Part shown: positions 489-10,150 of the stretch, in pieces | How the letters are laid out: the number at the start of each line of letters is the position of its first letter | Numbering within the stretch: position 1 is the first letter of the stretch | Origin: Candidatus Saccharimonadota bacterium | GTDB taxonomy: Bacteria > Patescibacteriota > Saccharimonadia > Saccharimonadales > Saccharimonadaceae | Direction of reading: 5' to 3' | Assembly: GCA_017515125.1 (NCBI GenBank) | Contig: JAFWHP010000054.1 | Span: forward strand, 1 to 10,150 | DNA: 10,150 nt | Notes under the pieces: model-generated | Told to the model about the DNA's origin: nothing | The model's database searches: none | Seen by the model: the letters and a program-made list of their open reading frames with translations, nothing else | Program-made: the position numbers and the translations under genes

Positions 489-2384
489 CTAATTATCACG
501 ATTTTCGCGCTTACGTTTAATTGGGTCAAGCTGTCGTTTCCGAAGCCTCAAAGACTTTGGCGTAACCTCAAGCAATTCATCATCAAGCAGAAAATCCAGG
601 CATTGTTCTAGCGATAATTGCGTATAGGGCGTTAACTGAATAGCGCCGTCCGAAGCATGCGTTCGCATATTGGTAAGCTGCTTTTCTCGGCAAACATTGA
701 TATCGAGGTCGTCTTTTTTATTTGATAAGCCAACTATCATTCCCTGATACACTGGCACTTGTGGTGGTATGTATAATACTCCTCGCGCTTGTGCATTATC
801 GAGTGCATAGGCAGTCGAAACGCCAGCTTCAGAAGCGATCAGAGCGCCGTTTCTTTCTGGCCGATAATGGCCATCTACTGGTCGATAGCCGGAAGGAATC
901 GACGACATTATTACAGTACCTTTAGTGGCAGTTAGGAGATTGTTTCGAAGACCAATTAGGGCCGCCGTTGAAATTTCATATACGAATCGAGTTGCGCCAG
1001 AGGAAGTAATGTCTTGCGATTTTAGCTCGGCGCGACGAATTCCTAGTTCTTGCGATACCGCTCCGACAAATTCCGGTTCCACTTCGATAGTCAAAGATTC
1101 AATCGGTTCAGATTTTACGCCATCAATATCTTTGTAAACCACTTCCGGTCGCCCCGCTTCTAGTTCGTATCCCTCTCGGCGCATTGTTTCGATTAATACG
1201 CTAAGATGCAGTTCCCCCCGCCCCGATACTTTGTAACCCAAGCCATCAGGTTGGATTTTGAGCGCTATATTGGTTTCAAGCTCTCGCTCTAGCCTTTCCG
1301 CGATCTGTCTAGAAGTAGTAAACTCGCCTTCGCGACCTTTAAGTGGAGAAGTGTTTGGGCCGATATAGATAGAAAGTGTCGGCGCTTCGAGTTCGATCGA
1401 AGGTAAAGCTTCTGGATTGTCGCCGGTAGCAATCGTGTCTCCAATATTCGCTTCGCCAATGCCAGAAATTGCCACAATGTCTCCCGCAATCGCTTCTGGC
1501 ACCTCTTCCTTGCCTAGCCCACGATAGGAAAATAAACGGTCAATCTTCGCTGGTGTAACGGAAAGTTCGACAGGTTCGTCGACGAGCGTGTCGGAGTTAC
1601 GACGCGACCCCGACTCGGAGACGGACCTCGTTGAACTTTCCTGACGACGCAAAACCTTGACGCTTTGCCCCTTTTTGAGCTTGCCACGAAAGATTTTACC
1701 AATCGCATATTTGCCAAGATAATTATCCGCTGCTAGCGCTGCCACTAGGAGCTGCGCCGACTCAGCATCGGCATCTACTGATGGCGCTGGAATATCATTA
1801 ATAATCGATTCAAAAATCACATGCAAATCATTGTCTAATTCTGGCGTTTTACCGGCTCGACCCTCACGCGCAATTGCATAGTATACTGGGTAAAACAATT
1901 GCGATTCGTCCGTCGCAAGTTCTAAGAATAGCGACTCAACTTCAGACAAAACTTCTTCAATTCTCGCCGCGGGCTTATCTATTTTATTAATCACTACCAC
2001 GGGTTTTAAGCCTAAAGATAAAGCTTTCGATAATACAAACTTCGTTTGCGGCATCGGTCCCTCTTGCGCGTCGACAATTAGCAATACTCCGTCTGCCATA
2101 TTCAAGGTTCGCTCTACTTCGCCAGAAAAATCCGCATGCCCTGGAGTGTCAATGATATTGATTTTGTAACCATTATAATAGACGCAGGTTTGTTTCGCCG
2201 TAATTGTGATTCCTCGCTCGTGTTCCTGATCCATGGAATCCATAATCAGGGTTTGCGACATTTCCGCCTGATTGTCGCGAAAAGTATGCGACTGCTTCAA
2301 AAGTCCATCCACCAGAGTTGTTTTTCCGTGGTCAACGTGCGCGATAATTGCCACATTTCTTATCAAATCTTTATTCAAAGTCAT
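489..2384 (-). CDS. typA: Ribosome-associated translational GTPase TypA/BipA, with a palindromic insertion
   Basis: A GTPase of the elongation-factor family that binds the ribosome and aids 50S assembly and stress adaptation. Numbered from the start at 2384, the protein is 631 residues. The G motifs are AHVDHGKT (15-22), ERGITI (56-61), DTPGH (79-83) and NKID (133-136). The TypA-typical stretches SGRGELHLSVLIE and EVTPKSLRLRKR follow in the C-terminal half. The frame could begin at 2420, but those 12 extra codons overlap a good promoter whose start site falls at or next to the A of the ATG at 2384. That ATG gives the family N terminus MTLNKDLIRNVAIIAHVDH and implies a leaderless message. E. 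coli BipA is about 607 residues; the excess is explained by about 27 residues (249-275) encoded by a palindromic insertion in domain II. The family call is very secure. Confidence 0.97.
   Translation of the reverse strand: MTLNKDLIRNVAIIAHVDHGKTTLVDGLLKQSHTFRDNQAEMSQTLIMDSMDQEHERGITITAKQTCVYYNGYKINIIDTPGHADFSGEVERTLNMADGVLLIVDAQEGPMPQTKFVLSKALSLGLKPVVVINKIDKPAARIEEVLSEVESLFLELATDESQLFYPVYYAIAREGRAGKTPELDNDLHVIFESIINDIPAPSVDADAESAQLLVAALAADNYLGKYAIGKIFRGKLKKGQSVKVLRRQESSTRSVSESGSRRNSDTLVDEPVELSVTPAKIDRLFSYRGLGKEEVPEAIAGDIVAISGIGEANIGDTIATGDNPEALPSIELEAPTLSIYIGPNTSPLKGREGEFTTSRQIAERLERELETNIALKIQPDGLGYKVSGRGELHLSVLIETMRREGYELEAGRPEVVYKDIDGVKSEPIESLTIEVEPEFVGAVSQELGIRRAELKSQDITSSGATRFVYEISTAALIGLRNNLLTATKGTVIMSSIPSGYRPVDGHYRPERNGALIASEAGVSTAYALDNAQARGVLYIPPQVPVYQGMIVGLSNKKDDLDINVCREKQLTNMRTHASDGAIQLTPYTQLSLEQCLDFLLDDELLEVTPKSLRLRKRQLDPIKRKRENRDN
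1560..1641 (-). mobile_element. In-frame palindromic insertion within typA (RPE-like)
   Basis: GGAAAGTTC (1560-1568) is mirrored by GAACTTTCC (1633-1641). Pairing continues inward as GAC (1569-1571) with GTT (1630-1632), including one G-T pair, then AGGTTCGTC (1572-1580) with GACGGACCT (1620-1628). This gives about 21 pairs with a single bulged base. The stretch is clearly richer in GC than the surrounding gene. In typA it encodes a polar stretch, residues 249-275, exactly where other BipA proteins have only a short turn between the VKVL strand and the AKIDRL-like strand. In-frame palindromic inserts that add tens of residues are known as Rickettsia palindromic elements. The resemblance is architectural only; I see no sequence relation to those. 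Confidence 0.6.
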
Positions 2385-2391
2385 AAGGGAT

Positions 2392-2420
2392 ATTCTAACA
2401 TATGTTGACAAATTTTTCAA
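2392..2420 (-). promoter_or_regulatory. typA promoter (leaderless)
   Basis: Read on the minus strand: TTGAAA (2420-2415), a 17-bp spacer, then TAGAAT (2397-2392), preceded by TG in the extended -10 position. The expected start of transcription, about 7 nt after the -10, lies within a base or two of the ATG at 2384, leaving no room for a ribosome binding site. Confidence 0.7.
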
Positions 2421-4995: not shown

Positions 4996-5090
4996 AAGTA
5001 AGTCATCCGTTTCGGACGTAAGACTGAGGGCAAGCACACTCTATCCATGACTTAATAGACGCATTCGATCGTGGGTGCGTCGCTTTTTGT
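4996..5090 (+). ncRNA. Candidate orphan small RNA, about 95 nt
   Basis: A promoter, a foldable body and an intrinsic terminator lie within about 130 bp and enclose no reading frame. AAGTCAT (5000-5006) pairs with ATGACTT (5047-5053) to close a multi-branched region containing the hairpin TCCG-TTT-CGGA (5006-5016, T5006 competing with the outer stem). The terminator hairpin follows. The RNA runs convergently into the minus-strand gene ending at 5052, so its last 39 nt or so are antisense to the 3' end of that coding region. It does not match tRNA, 4.5S or any riboswitch I know. It could be a trans-acting regulator, an antisense regulator of the nuclease-like gene, or a product of terminator placement. 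Confidence 0.5.
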
Positions 5091-5555
5091 AAGATTATAA
5101 GCTGTTACTAGAGTGATTTCATTCTTCTTTATACTAACTTCAACAACTATAATATGATTTTTTGAAGTCTGTCGCATTATTTTGTATCTCTTCAAACCTC
5201 GTACTTGTTTATCAAATATTATCTCGTCCCGACGAGCAGTTTTAATTATAGTCGGAATTCCTGATATTTGCGAAAGTGTCAAAGGATCAGGATCATTGTG
5301 CCCTCTCTTTCCAAAGCCAGAACCAGTAAAGTGTCCAGAATTATCCATGTGTAGAATATAGCTTCTTTTAAGCAATATTTTGGCGCGAATACTAACTCCA
5401 AACAAAGAAGCGGTTTCTTTTTCAGGATAGCCAAGCAATGCAGATTTAGTTTGCCCATTAAGCACTTCAGCAAACTTTCGCGTCACGGAACTATGCCTAG
5501 CCATTCGGGTCAGGATAGTGTCAAGCCTGGCATATCGTTCGGCGGAGGCACCCAT
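5052..5555 (-). CDS. Small protein resembling PBECR-type nucleases, coupled to the cutinase-VWA gene
   Basis: 167 residues, no signal peptide. The C-terminal two thirds look like the phage-Barnase-EndoU-ColicinE5/D-RelE-like (PBECR) domains: ILHMDNSGHFTGSGFG (67-82), GHNDPD (85-90), a helix reading LTLSQISGIPTIIKTARRDE (92-111), a strand KRYKIM (122-127), IIVVEVS (135-141) and a final LVTAY (149-153). H69, H75, H86 and T151 are candidate catalytic residues. Such domains are RNases in polymorphic toxins and phage proteins. Its ATG shares one base with the stop of the upstream gene (TAATG), so translation is probably coupled and the two proteins are likely made together. No immunity gene is obvious after it; the next feature is a convergent small RNA that overlaps its 3' end. 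The family assignment is from pattern memory and moderate only. Confidence 0.7.
   Translation of the reverse strand: MGASAERYARLDTILTRMARHSSVTRKFAEVLNGQTKSALLGYPEKETASLFGVSIRAKILLKRSYILHMDNSGHFTGSGFGKRGHNDPDPLTLSQISGIPTIIKTARRDEIIFDKQVRGLKRYKIMRQTSKNHIIVVEVSIKKNEITLVTAYNLTKSDAPTIECVY
5058..5088 (+). terminator. Intrinsic terminator of the candidate small RNA
   Basis: GACGCA (5058-5063) pairs with TGCGTC (5076-5081) around a 12-nt loop and is followed by GCTTTTT, with the T run at 5084-5088. The hairpin lies inside the last codons of the minus-strand gene, which read through it without a U-tract on their side. Confidence 0.65.
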
Positions 5556-7348
5556 TAATTCTTTCCGGTATTCGGCGCCTTCGGTACATTTTTTGTGATA
5601 CTCTCCGTTTGGCTTTCGAGCGGCTCGATTTTTACAGTTGCCGCTACTCCGCGCATTTCTTCTCCGAACGGCACGAGCGCCACTACGTTCGTAATGCTCC
5701 TGTCTAATCCACCAATTGTGATTTCTCCATTCCCATTAATCGGCGTCGTCTTGCCGAGCAGATAGTCATTCAATATTACTAAAACATCTTTCGTATTCGC
5801 CATATTAACCTCAAACGTGATTCGCAAGGTATCTTCTGACAGATATTGAGTTCCGGTCAATCTTAATTCCGGCAGCTCAATTGGGTTGGTGTTTTCCTCC
5901 ACTTTTGGTAAGGAATCATATCTTTCGACAATATAATCCGTCAGCAATTCCAGCTCATCAAAATTCGACACCACTTTCCCATCCGTCGCCGTTGCCAGAG
6001 CAGTATAGTTCTTGGCGCTTTCGCTATTTGTGATGATGTAGAAGTTTACGGGGTCAATTTTTTTGCTTAAAGAAACCACCTCGTCAAAAGTCATCCCATC
6101 CCTATCTGGCGATAAGAAGTCTGCATCTGTTAGGACTACCAATGATTTCGTTGAACCCTGCTTCCATTTCAGGCTTTTCATGACATGAAATGATGCCGAA
6201 AGTAGTGATTCTGGCGCATCTCCGCCTCCTTCTGTATGAATCATGTTTAACCGTTCCCTTATTATAGCCAAATCGCAACTGTTAAAATCGCAATGCATTA
6301 CCGGCTCATAAGGGTCGTCTAGGTCACGATAATCGAAAAGCGCCACTCTTCCGCCTGCCTCCAGGGTTTTCTTTGCTAGCCTCAATGCCTCTGCCTTGTA
6401 CTGTTCGATCATCCCCGACATCGATCCAGACGAATCAATCAGTATCGCCGTATCATGCGGCGAGGATACCGTATTCTTTACGCCAAAAGCCTTGCAGATT
6501 TTGTCAAAGATTACTCTGGAGGCATCTTCGTATAATCCCTCAGAAACGTACGCAGTGTGATCGCTCGTACTGAAACGCGAGCTGCAGAAAATATCGCCTT
6601 TATTGCACCAAGTCCCTACTTTCCCCGCGTAGGATAGTGGCTGGTAAGGCCGATAGCTTCCCAGCAAACCCTCATAAGCATAACAATCCGGTACATACAT
6701 CCGGTATTCAGATAGATTTTCGTTCCGACATGCTGCCGGAATCGTACCAGTTTGCATGAAATTTTTTTCAGAATTACTGCCAAACGGTATCGCTCCCCAT
6801 GACTTGCCCTCAGGCAGATAAATTTTTGGGTCTCCAAAAGTAGCCGCATAGATGATTCTTTCCGCCGCAATATCTCTAAGTGCCTTTGATACGGTCATAG
6901 CCCCCTGGGAGTAGCCGCCTAGTATATATTTTGTGTTCTGGCAGATCCGGTCGCTAGTTAAATTTGCCAACTCTTGCACTCCAGCATCTACGCTCCGTCC
7001 GAATTCATATGTATCTCCCGCTCCGAAAAACGCTCCGACGGTCAAAGAAAATGCATCCATCCCAATTCCTACCGCCGGATAGTCTAGATCGACAAACTCA
7101 TAGTCTATATCTGTCGTTTTTAGTTTTGATTCAATCGAATCCTTAAAGGCTAAATAGTTTTTATCAACCCATCTTTCTCCACCCGATCCTCTCGCGAAGA
7201 CCACTCTCACATCTGGGCAATCAGCGGCCTGTGTCGGTTTTTGCCATAACAAGGCCCCCAAAACAGCCAAAAAGACTATCGCGAAAAAGCTTATTTTGCT
7301 CATCCACCGTCGCCCATCTTTCATTTCTGCCGAAATAAATCTTTGCAT
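5555..7348 (-). CDS. Secreted cutinase-like hydrolase fused to a von Willebrand A domain, ending in an APNTG motif
   Basis: A 597-residue exported protein. Residues 18-35 form a hydrophobic signal segment, with likely cleavage after PTQA. Residues 44-290 are an alpha/beta hydrolase of the cutinase family: nucleophile elbow GYSQGA (S147), Asp in CNKGDIFC (D252, between C248 and C255) and DHTAYV (H264) form the triad. Cutinases cleave esters of lipids or polyesters. Residues 298-475 are a VWA domain with a complete metal site: DSSGSM (305-310), TEGGGD (372-377) and LTDAD (406-410). A beta-rich region then leads to PKAPNTGKN at the C terminus, a sortase-like motif without the usual following membrane helix and charged tail. 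The frame opens at 7378, but AAGGGAG sits 8 nt before the ATG at 7348 and the earlier ATG overlaps the -10 box. The role is probably lipid or host-surface contact, an inference. Confidence 0.88.
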   Translation of the reverse strand: MQRFISAEMKDGRRWMSKISFFAIVFLAVLGALLWQKPTQAADCPDVRVVFARGSGGERWVDKNYLAFKDSIESKLKTTDIDYEFVDLDYPAVGIGMDAFSLTVGAFFGAGDTYEFGRSVDAGVQELANLTSDRICQNTKYILGGYSQGAMTVSKALRDIAAERIIYAATFGDPKIYLPEGKSWGAIPFGSNSEKNFMQTGTIPAACRNENLSEYRMYVPDCYAYEGLLGSYRPYQPLSYAGKVGTWCNKGDIFCSSRFSTSDHTAYVSEGLYEDASRVIFDKICKAFGVKNTVSSPHDTAILIDSSGSMSGMIEQYKAEALRLAKKTLEAGGRVALFDYRDLDDPYEPVMHCDFNSCDLAIIRERLNMIHTEGGGDAPESLLSASFHVMKSLKWKQGSTKSLVVLTDADFLSPDRDGMTFDEVVSLSKKIDPVNFYIITNSESAKNYTALATATDGKVVSNFDELELLTDYIVERYDSLPKVEENTNPIELPELRLTGTQYLSEDTLRITFEVNMANTKDVLVILNDYLLGKTTPINGNGEITIGGLDRSITNVVALVPFGEEMRGVAATVKIEPLESQTESITKNVPKAPNTGKN

Positions 7349-7377
7349 TTTCTCTCCCTTTAAATTTTCTGCCATCA

Positions 7378-7405
7378 TTTATACATACGGTGCCATAATT
7401 TGCAA
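7378..7405 (-). promoter_or_regulatory. Promoter of the cutinase-VWA / nuclease-like pair
   Basis: Minus-strand TTGCAA (7405-7400), a 16-bp spacer and TATAAA (7383-7378). Transcription would start near 7371, leaving a leader of some 20 nt with AAGGGAG (7360-7354) before the ATG at 7348. The alternative ATG at 7378-7376 lies inside or next to the -10 box and is not expected to be transcribed from here. Confidence 0.55.
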
Positions 7406-9794: not shown

Positions 9795-10150
9795 ATGAAG
9801 TGCCACAGTACCAACACAAATCGCAGTAGCAATTACAATAATATAAGTAGTAACATTGATAAAGGTTATTGCAATCATAACCATTTCATTGGCGGCATAT
9901 TTCGTTATTTACGCAACCATAATCATAACAATGATTACCATAACCACTGCAAGCACAAGAATTATCCTAACCATGACAGCAATAATTCCCATAAGCCCCT
10001 TCATGGTATCAGTAGGCTTCTCACTTCACCTACTGATACCATGAATAGGTTTATTCTATGTTTATGCTTTATACTTACATTAAACTATATTATAAATATA
10101 CTAAACCCTCATTATTCTTATGCTGATACTAAGTATTCTATTACTTATGA
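9795..10150 (+). CDS. Partial His/Asn-rich protein with a membrane or signal segment, runs off the window
   Basis: The frame is open for 118 codons to the window edge, unusually long in such AT-rich DNA. It starts with ATG 5 nt after AAGGAG. Residues 1-81 are polar and dominated by Asn and His: ten His between 28 and 70 (for example NHNH, HNHNNDYHNHCKHK), with Cys 3, 26 and 52. Residues 84-103 are hydrophobic (RFILCLCFILTLNYIINIL), followed by NPHYSYADTKYS. An internal ATG at 10041 (M83) would begin a typical signal peptide cut after SYA, so the true protein could start there and the upstream part could be a regulatory leader. That ATG lies in the 3' arm of a perfect 16-bp hairpin. A metal-binding or leader-peptide role are both possible; I do not recognise the family. 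A second frame (from 9856) is also hydrophobic but has no binding site. Confidence 0.55.
   Translation, partial: MKCHSTNTNRSSNYNNISSNIDKGYCNHNHFIGGIFRYLRNHNHNNDYHNHCKHKNYPNHDSNNSHKPLHGISRLLTSPTDTMNRFILCLCFILTLNYIINILNPHYSYADTKYSITY
10001..10044. repeat. Perfect 16-bp inverted repeat with a 12-nt loop
   Basis: TCATGGTATCAGTAGG (10001-10016) is exactly mirrored by CCTACTGATACCATGA (10029-10044). It lies within the right-end frame and includes the internal ATG at 10041. No U-run follows closely, so a simple terminator is unlikely. In RNA it would hide that ATG; in DNA it could be a protein binding site. Confidence 0.8.

Follow-up and report, generated by a model that had tools for sequence, protein, structure and literature searches.

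A palindromic insert in the typA gene of a Saccharibacteria genome: a probable copy of dispersed protein-coding elements with site-specific arms

Introduction

Why should the gene of a translational GTPase carry, in frame, a long and nearly perfect DNA palindrome? The question is raised by typA (bipA) in a stretch of 10,150 nucleotides, here called the window, which is contig C32 of a Candidatus Saccharimonadota genome of 520,584 bases in 56 contigs (69% complete). According to the TypA protein, its nearest named relatives are Candidatus Saccharibacteria from the ruminant gut, including Ca. Nanosyncoccus alces, which bears out an initial annotation of the window, made from its letters only, in which the genome was called CPR-like.

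To our knowledge, most of the coding palindromes described in bacteria come from Rickettsia, and their mode of spread is unsolved. In the portion of the report considered here, the Rickettsia elements (RPE) are given as about 150 bp long and divided into ten families, with 44 integrations in R. conorii (PMC10969869). In-frame inverted repeats whose arms evolve in concert have also been described in protein genes of Nematomorpha mitochondria, and template switching was proposed for them by the authors in the part of that work used here (PMC6649704). Among the titles and first lines of abstracts listed from an open-licence library, no description of such elements in Saccharibacteria or CPR was found.

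The palindrome and the TypA protein

The features of the locus, in window coordinates, are the following.

489..2420, minus strand: typA/bipA, translational GTPase (NCBIfam TIGR01394, 765.1 bits, cut-off 757.3); ORF opening codon TTG at 2420, typA start ATG at 2384
1560..1641, minus strand: palindromic insert, in frame, residues 249-275 counted from the ATG, net 26 residues over empty relatives
1560..1580, plus strand: first outer arm, 21 nt, unlike the arms of the three other copies with the same core
1581..1619, plus strand: core, on the strand antisense to typA
1591..1604, plus strand: 14-nt core word, common to contig C43 of the same genome, leuS of genome G067 and polA of genome G095
1620..1641, plus strand: second outer arm, 22 nt, with one bulged base

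The element is 82 nt long, and on the plus strand positions 1560-1580 pair with 1620-1641 in a stem of 21 pairs, 19 of them Watson-Crick and 2 G-T, with one bulged base (read by eye from the fold). Also by eye, a tandem GA at 1581-1582 faces GA at 1618-1619, as in the R1 elements described below. The initial annotation had reported an in-frame palindrome of this length and number of terminal pairs in typA; both sequence and fold agree with that description, and the identity of the host gene is confirmed by a score above the curated cut-off for TypA. Folded with DNA energies, a 121-nt stretch around the element reaches -26.2 kcal/mol, whereas shuffled sequences average -20.31 (z -2.18; 6 of 200 shuffles fold equally well or better); with RNA energies the loop region gives z -3.03 (100 shuffles). 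Taken alone, the hairpin is improbable to a moderate degree, and the weight of the argument rests on comparative evidence.

In the protein, the stretch that holds the insert has 39 residues in the window and 13 in the empty relatives (typA loci L027-L032), a net gain of 26; the corresponding lengths of the typA loop stretch are 126 and 48 nt. The placement at residues 249-275 made previously is correct when counted from the ATG at 2384. The accompanying figure of about 27 added residues was right in that residues are added but not in the exact number. When TypA is aligned to a solved BipA structure (5a9v), the additional residues follow residue 247 and precede residue 248. An AlphaFold2 model, with a mean pLDDT of 76.4 and a numbering that begins one residue ahead of the ATG, gives residues 251-272 pLDDT values below 50 and places them between predicted strands at 242-248 and 275-281. 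The insert is thus modelled as a low-confidence coil, or unstructured loop, between two strands of TypA, and because of this position its cost to the protein may be low.

Empty and filled typA sites in the genus

The presence of a clean empty site in close relatives had been proposed as a check of the insertion, and such sites exist in the same genus. Thirty typA loci were aligned, that of the window being L003. Six of them (L027-L032) are empty, with 13 residues at the site, and the others carry inserts of many lengths. The empty site is also found in L027, the sister row of the window on the typA tree, where the support of the fork is just 86/76. By eye, a full-length hairpin is present in 11 of the 30 loops, with outer arms that differ, and a weak one in L008; other species have different palindromes at the same spot. 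The length of the loop varies across the genus, and the long loops of L016 and L025 have no palindrome.

The tree has 55 rows and was built with the loop excluded. Identical proteins and rows L124 and L171 were dropped, as were those whose loop was missed by the search expression (for instance L113, L115, L119, L123 and the majority of the distant rows), and L006 was added by hand. An insert was counted as palindromic at z <= -2.5 and energy <= -29 kcal/mol, which selects 13 rows, to which L006 was added; L118 was left uncounted, with z -3.81 but only 72 nt and -20.3 kcal/mol. To account for the 14 palindromic rows, the tree requires 8 gains or losses (7-9 in bootstrap trees), and its well-supported branches force at least 5 changes. 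Shuffled rows need 12.5 changes on average, and one of 500 shuffles was as low as the observed value. Palindromes have therefore repeatedly come or gone at this spot of typA.

The inserts of L015, L017 and L008 share, by eye, another core, roughly GACCATAAGC..GG.CGARCG.CC..CGAGCG. It resembles neither the core of R1 nor that of the window and appears to represent a further core family at the typA site.

The R1 family

When the typA insert of L009 (genome G006) was used as a DNA query, matches were found in 95 of 118 genomes of the genus. A covariance model, R1, was built from an alignment of 32 copies. In R1 elements, a long outer stem, interrupted by a tandem mismatch of GA opposite GA, leads to two inner hairpins, whose loops are AACG in most copies (by eye). 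The core, of about 75-80 nt, comprises the inner portion of the stem, GA/GA mismatch included, together with both hairpins, and is common to different sites. Thirty of the 39 pairs have changed on both sides, and the covariation score is 0.501, as compared with 0.167 for shuffled and at most 0.155 for slid alignments; this score is favoured because the structure came from the same alignment, and its controls leave relatedness in.

At E <= 1e-6, R1 is present in 58 of 60 genomes of the genus, with 0 to 27 matches per genome and 569 in all, up to 55 candidates per genome having been scored. In a draw of 158 genomes from the whole order, R1 was found in 11, of which 8 were the window's own genome or others of its genus and 3 belonged to one other genus of the family, where scores were weaker. 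Among genomes reached through named typA loci, 6 of 11 contain it. The highest number of matches, 36, comes from the sheep-duodenum MAG of L092; the MAG of L124 (isolate Th196P3bin64, which we take to be of termite source) has 8, Ca. N. alces 4, two other genomes 4 and 1, and the MAG of L110 has 3. In addition, a weak R1 match (26.7 bits) lies at the same typA position in L123:2250-2360, from a MAG labelled Candidatus Nomurabacteria; the genome of this MAG has no R1 match at E <= 1e-5.

The genome of the window has five R1 places, in ileS, in uvrB, in an nrdG ORF at a contig end, in a gene for a TIGR01177-like methyltransferase, and in one stretch without a long ORF (the names of the hosts being taken from clustering). 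An Rfam 15 scan of the window and five element loci matched no element to a known structured RNA. Its sole match elsewhere, a weak one to a microRNA model at 9996-10049 (26.3 bits, cut-off 90), was discarded.

Probable kinship of the window insert with R1

The core of the window insert contains a 14-nt word, TCGGAGTTACGACG, which occurs at four places in 3 of the 118 genomes of the genus:

Site 1: typA of the window
Site 2: contig C43 of the same genome, ORF of 435 aa with a glycosyltransferase domain
Site 3: leuS ORF of genome G067, above the curated cut-off
Site 4: polA ORF of genome G095, above the curated cut-off

Each of the four sites is palindromic and within an ORF, and their arms are unlike. 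A weak point is that four known places in 118 genomes have to be set against one match of the reversed word in the same genomes. A DNA similarity search of these 118 genomes with the whole insert gave matches in 3 of them: besides the insert itself, the window's genome yielded a weak match on C43, and each of two further genomes yielded one. A search of the host genome for further copies, which had been suggested together with the empty-site check, thus led to the same 14-nt core in the glycosyltransferase ORF and to the five places of the R1 model. The insertion is neither present in all relatives nor devoid of further copies, and the initial interpretation of the insert as an element of a dispersed repeat family is supported.

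With default filters, the R1 model reported nothing on the window insert at E up to 5 in a search of 83 sources. With the filters off and over 2420 bases, the insert scored 12.7 bits (E 0.019), the best of 11 rows. Because this score is weak, kinship with R1 falls short of proof. In its favour are the tandem GA at the edge of the core and the common sites, since the same positions of leuS (L200) and polA (L184 and L243) are occupied by R1 in other genomes (by eye). The window insert, a short and diverged copy, is therefore likely, though not proved, to belong to the R1 family as judged from sequence features.

Position in genes and reading frame

For a census of R1, 90 loci from the strongest matches in the genus and 5 loci of the window's genome were taken together. 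These 95 loci contain 118 matches, 109 of them distinct, which represent the strongest matches only. The core is spanned by an ORF of at least 150 aa in 99 of the 109 copies (71 sense, 28 antisense), and 10 copies have no such ORF. The initial annotation had suggested looking for copies inside and outside genes, and across the genus the strong copies are mostly within long ORFs. Nine of the 99 genic copies are 20 aa or less from an end of the sequenced ORF, and some of these may consequently fall outside the real gene. Since 1220 of 1488 random windows of the same loci (82%) are also covered by such ORFs, R1 is about as often genic as any other sequence.

The unusual feature of the genic copies is not their location in genes but the kept frame. 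Among the 97 copies with enough flank for the test, 79 have an ORF that extends 40 aa or more to each side, whereas exchanging the elements between sites gave a mean of 20.8 (sd 3.8, maximum 28, 30 rounds). Under a weaker criterion, by which the element had only to be spanned by some ORF of 150 aa or more, 99 of 109 copies compared with a swap mean of 71.2 (maximum 79); this criterion was replaced by the test on both sides. Depending on which frame of the element is read, a stop occurs in 56 to 87 of the 109 copies. The lengths bounded by the covariance model leave remainders of 0, 1 and 2 on division by three in 50, 22 and 37 of the 109 copies; as the ends of the model fall within the arms, these lengths are not all multiples of three.

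Of the 31 host clusters, 27 have a representative with an NCBIfam name, in several cases at a score below the curated cut-off. The host genes are ileS, obgE, argS, mnmA, queA, leuS, ychF, gatA, recX, gyrA, the TIGR01177-like methyltransferase, uvrB, nifS/iscS, rlmD, polA, dusB, nrdG, truB, a FemX-like transferase, der, tgt, miaA, fpg, gatB, tsaD, pheT, and a P-type ATPase. For ileS, obgE, argS, mnmA and leuS, in-frame empty orthologues exist alongside the filled ones.

Site-specific matching arms

Among the matches listed, cores of 65 nt can be 100% identical across sites and genomes and then switch abruptly to unlike arms; examples are the pairs L224 and L218, and L216 and L212. Arms and cores were compared in 105 of the 109 copies, and arms at the same site in 97, flank being the limiting factor. 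When the two arms of a copy are scored against each other, the result exceeds 99% of cross-pairs for 96 of 105 copies and falls short for 9. In 93 genic copies, the matched stretch has a median of 18 bp. Copies at the same site were compared in 48 pairs, and the difference affects both sides in 287 arm cells and a single side in 65. The own-arm, mismatch and same-site counts come from local alignments, which are biased to matches, and the same-site pairs are not independent.

The mismatches were also counted in the sense of the mRNA, in which pairing tolerates G.U but not A.C. The arm cells of the 93 genic copies comprise 1883 Watson-Crick pairs, 53 G.U, 48 A.C and 96 others; G.U and A.C number 35 and 27 in sense copies, and 18 and 21 in antisense copies. 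The near equality of G.U and A.C points to a process at the DNA level and not to selection on the mRNA. A hairpin kept for its role in RNA, for instance in the pausing, stability or processing of the mRNA, with arms held complementary by selection for pairing, is accordingly an unlikely explanation, even though the strong covariation (30 of 39 pairs changed on both sides, 0.501 against 0.167) and the occurrence of long, stable hairpins in transcribed genes fit it. Selection of this kind should spare G.U and remove A.C, and on these counts it was rejected as the main cause of arm matching. Moreover, relatedness remains in the covariation controls, and with 28 of 99 genic copies in antisense orientation the transcribed strand of the core varies.

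At some sites one of the arms can be compared with the native gene. In obgE, the right flank encodes the native LIADL (IIADL in the empty L212), and the left arm approximates its reverse complement (by eye); in ileS, the left flank appears to be native, again by eye. A counter-example to arm matching is offered by ychF, where L188 and L211 share the insertion and the left flank, and the right flank of L188 has been replaced, leaving arms that do not match; the L188 insert is a broken copy. The site-specific arms, as well as the existence of several different cores among the typA palindromes, go beyond the initial annotation. The combination of a core common between sites with outer arms that are site-specific and self-complementary looks new.

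Comparison with known systems

Like RPE, R1 elements are dispersed in one genome and lie in frame in unrelated genes. RPE, as far as the consulted part of the report describes them, are short palindromic repeats scattered over a small bacterial genome, and many of them lie in frame in unrelated conserved genes (PMC10969869). The elements of Saccharibacteria are found in another phylum, and they are likened to RPE by description and not by sequence. In addition, RPE palindromes are said to lose the identity of their arms over time in the portion of text available to us (PMC6649704), whereas the arms of the Saccharibacteria elements are site-specific and co-vary. In this respect they resemble the repeats of Nematomorpha, also in-frame inverted repeats with concerted arms; those repeats, in the part of the report considered, are described without a conserved core, while the Saccharibacteria elements have a core common to sites and genomes, are bacterial, and are far more numerous per clade. 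By analogy, the elements would work like RPE and behave in their arms more like the Nematomorpha palindromes, and they are filed as members of neither group.

MITEs are likewise short, dispersed and palindromic, without a gene of their own, and REP/RAYT repeats are short palindromes with a conserved central part. It could be supposed that the elements are ordinary repeats of one of these types, moved by a transposase that acts on their ends, the matching of the arms being secondary. We regard this as rather improbable, somewhat more so than an RNA role. Dispersed short palindromes with near-identical cores would be expected from it, and MITE-like intergenic repeats with common arms do exist in the same genome. 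However, MITEs have common terminal inverted repeats, and the ends of the elements differ between copies even when the cores are up to 100% identical; besides, they lie mostly within ORFs, which also separates them from REP/RAYT repeats. The Y1/RAYT-type domain PF01797, the only transposase domain searched for, occurs in 2 of 60 genomes of the genus, as against 58 of 60 for R1, and mobilisation by RAYT was rejected.

Mitochondrial byp elements are GC-rich hairpins inside protein genes. The elements of Saccharibacteria may appear analogous to them, in that GC-rich hairpins interrupt genes of conserved proteins, and the insert might then be left untranslated, through ribosome bypassing or through splicing or processing of the RNA, giving a protein of normal length. 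We consider this very improbable, because bypassing or splicing would make the frame and the avoidance of stops needless: whichever frame is read, over half of the copies contain a stop (56 to 87 of 109), and yet in 79 of 97 copies the ORF stays open for 40 aa or more to each side, where swaps give 20.8. Retention of frame and ORF distinguishes them from byp.

Ordinary divergence of a variable loop, palindromic by chance when long, has hardly any probability left, since genus-wide length variation, the unpalindromic long loops of L016 and L025 and the modest z of -2.18 of the window hairpin as DNA would suit it, but the same cores recur in unrelated genes, which contradicts it for the family, arm matching exceeds that of cross-pairs, and 14 typA inserts are palindromic by set criteria.

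A proposed origin of the insert

In our opinion, the typA insert is probably one copy of a population of dispersed protein-coding palindromic elements, similar in kind to those of Rickettsia but arisen separately, whose arms are made at the site. Cores are common to unrelated sites, most of the strong copies are retained in frame, their arms match and are site-specific, and palindromes have been present and absent recurrently. From these sequence comparisons we infer movement of the core, translation of the insert and a mechanism for the arms. The core would be copied or moved to new places, and selection would retain mainly those copies that are in frame in loops tolerant of added residues; the protein made by the cell would therefore be longer and have a floppy loop. 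The arms would arise and be maintained locally through a process acting on DNA. Fold-back or template-switch copying is the most likely candidate; by it, one host flank would be written in reverse complement beyond the other side of the core, and this would be repeated as the gene drifts. Such an element would behave as selfish or neutral DNA.

More tentatively, a mobile core might build its own terminal repeats from the host gene, its hairpin priming fold-back copying of the neighbouring sequence and so keeping the arms matched; we regard this version as somewhat less likely than not. If it were true, the target duplication gained by a mobile core would be inverted instead of direct, and we know of no bacterial repeats with such a mode of insertion and upkeep.

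The streamlined CPR genus holds a second, apparently separate and numerous, population of coding palindromes. Reduced genomes can thus hold many in-frame inserts, in genes for tRNA synthetases, GTPases and repair enzymes. With so many copies, and with filled and empty sites side by side, the insertion of the elements, the formation of their arms and their tolerance by the protein can be tested directly.

Other features of the window

Downstream of typA, positions 1-152 of the window form a large intergenic palindrome with 44-nt arms. Matches of 97-98%, arms included, are present in contigs C35, C8 and C24, with a partial one in C11, none of them in a long ORF; this is a MITE-like repeat, unlike the coding elements. 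A second repeat family lies at 167-395, with 37-nt arms, and has copies of 93-97% in C29, C1, C38 and C52 and a partial copy in C42; its arm at 302-338 is repeated at 359-395.

At 5052-5555, an ORF of 167 aa matches PBECR3, a phage-associated nuclease-like domain, with 35.2 bits (cut-off 30), and adjoins a cutinase/VWA protein at 5555-7378. A further inverted repeat, with 26-nt arms that are 88% complementary and a 12-nt loop, is located at 9991-10054, at the end of the contig. It lies within a reading frame that gave no match in a Pfam search and is rich in Asn and His.
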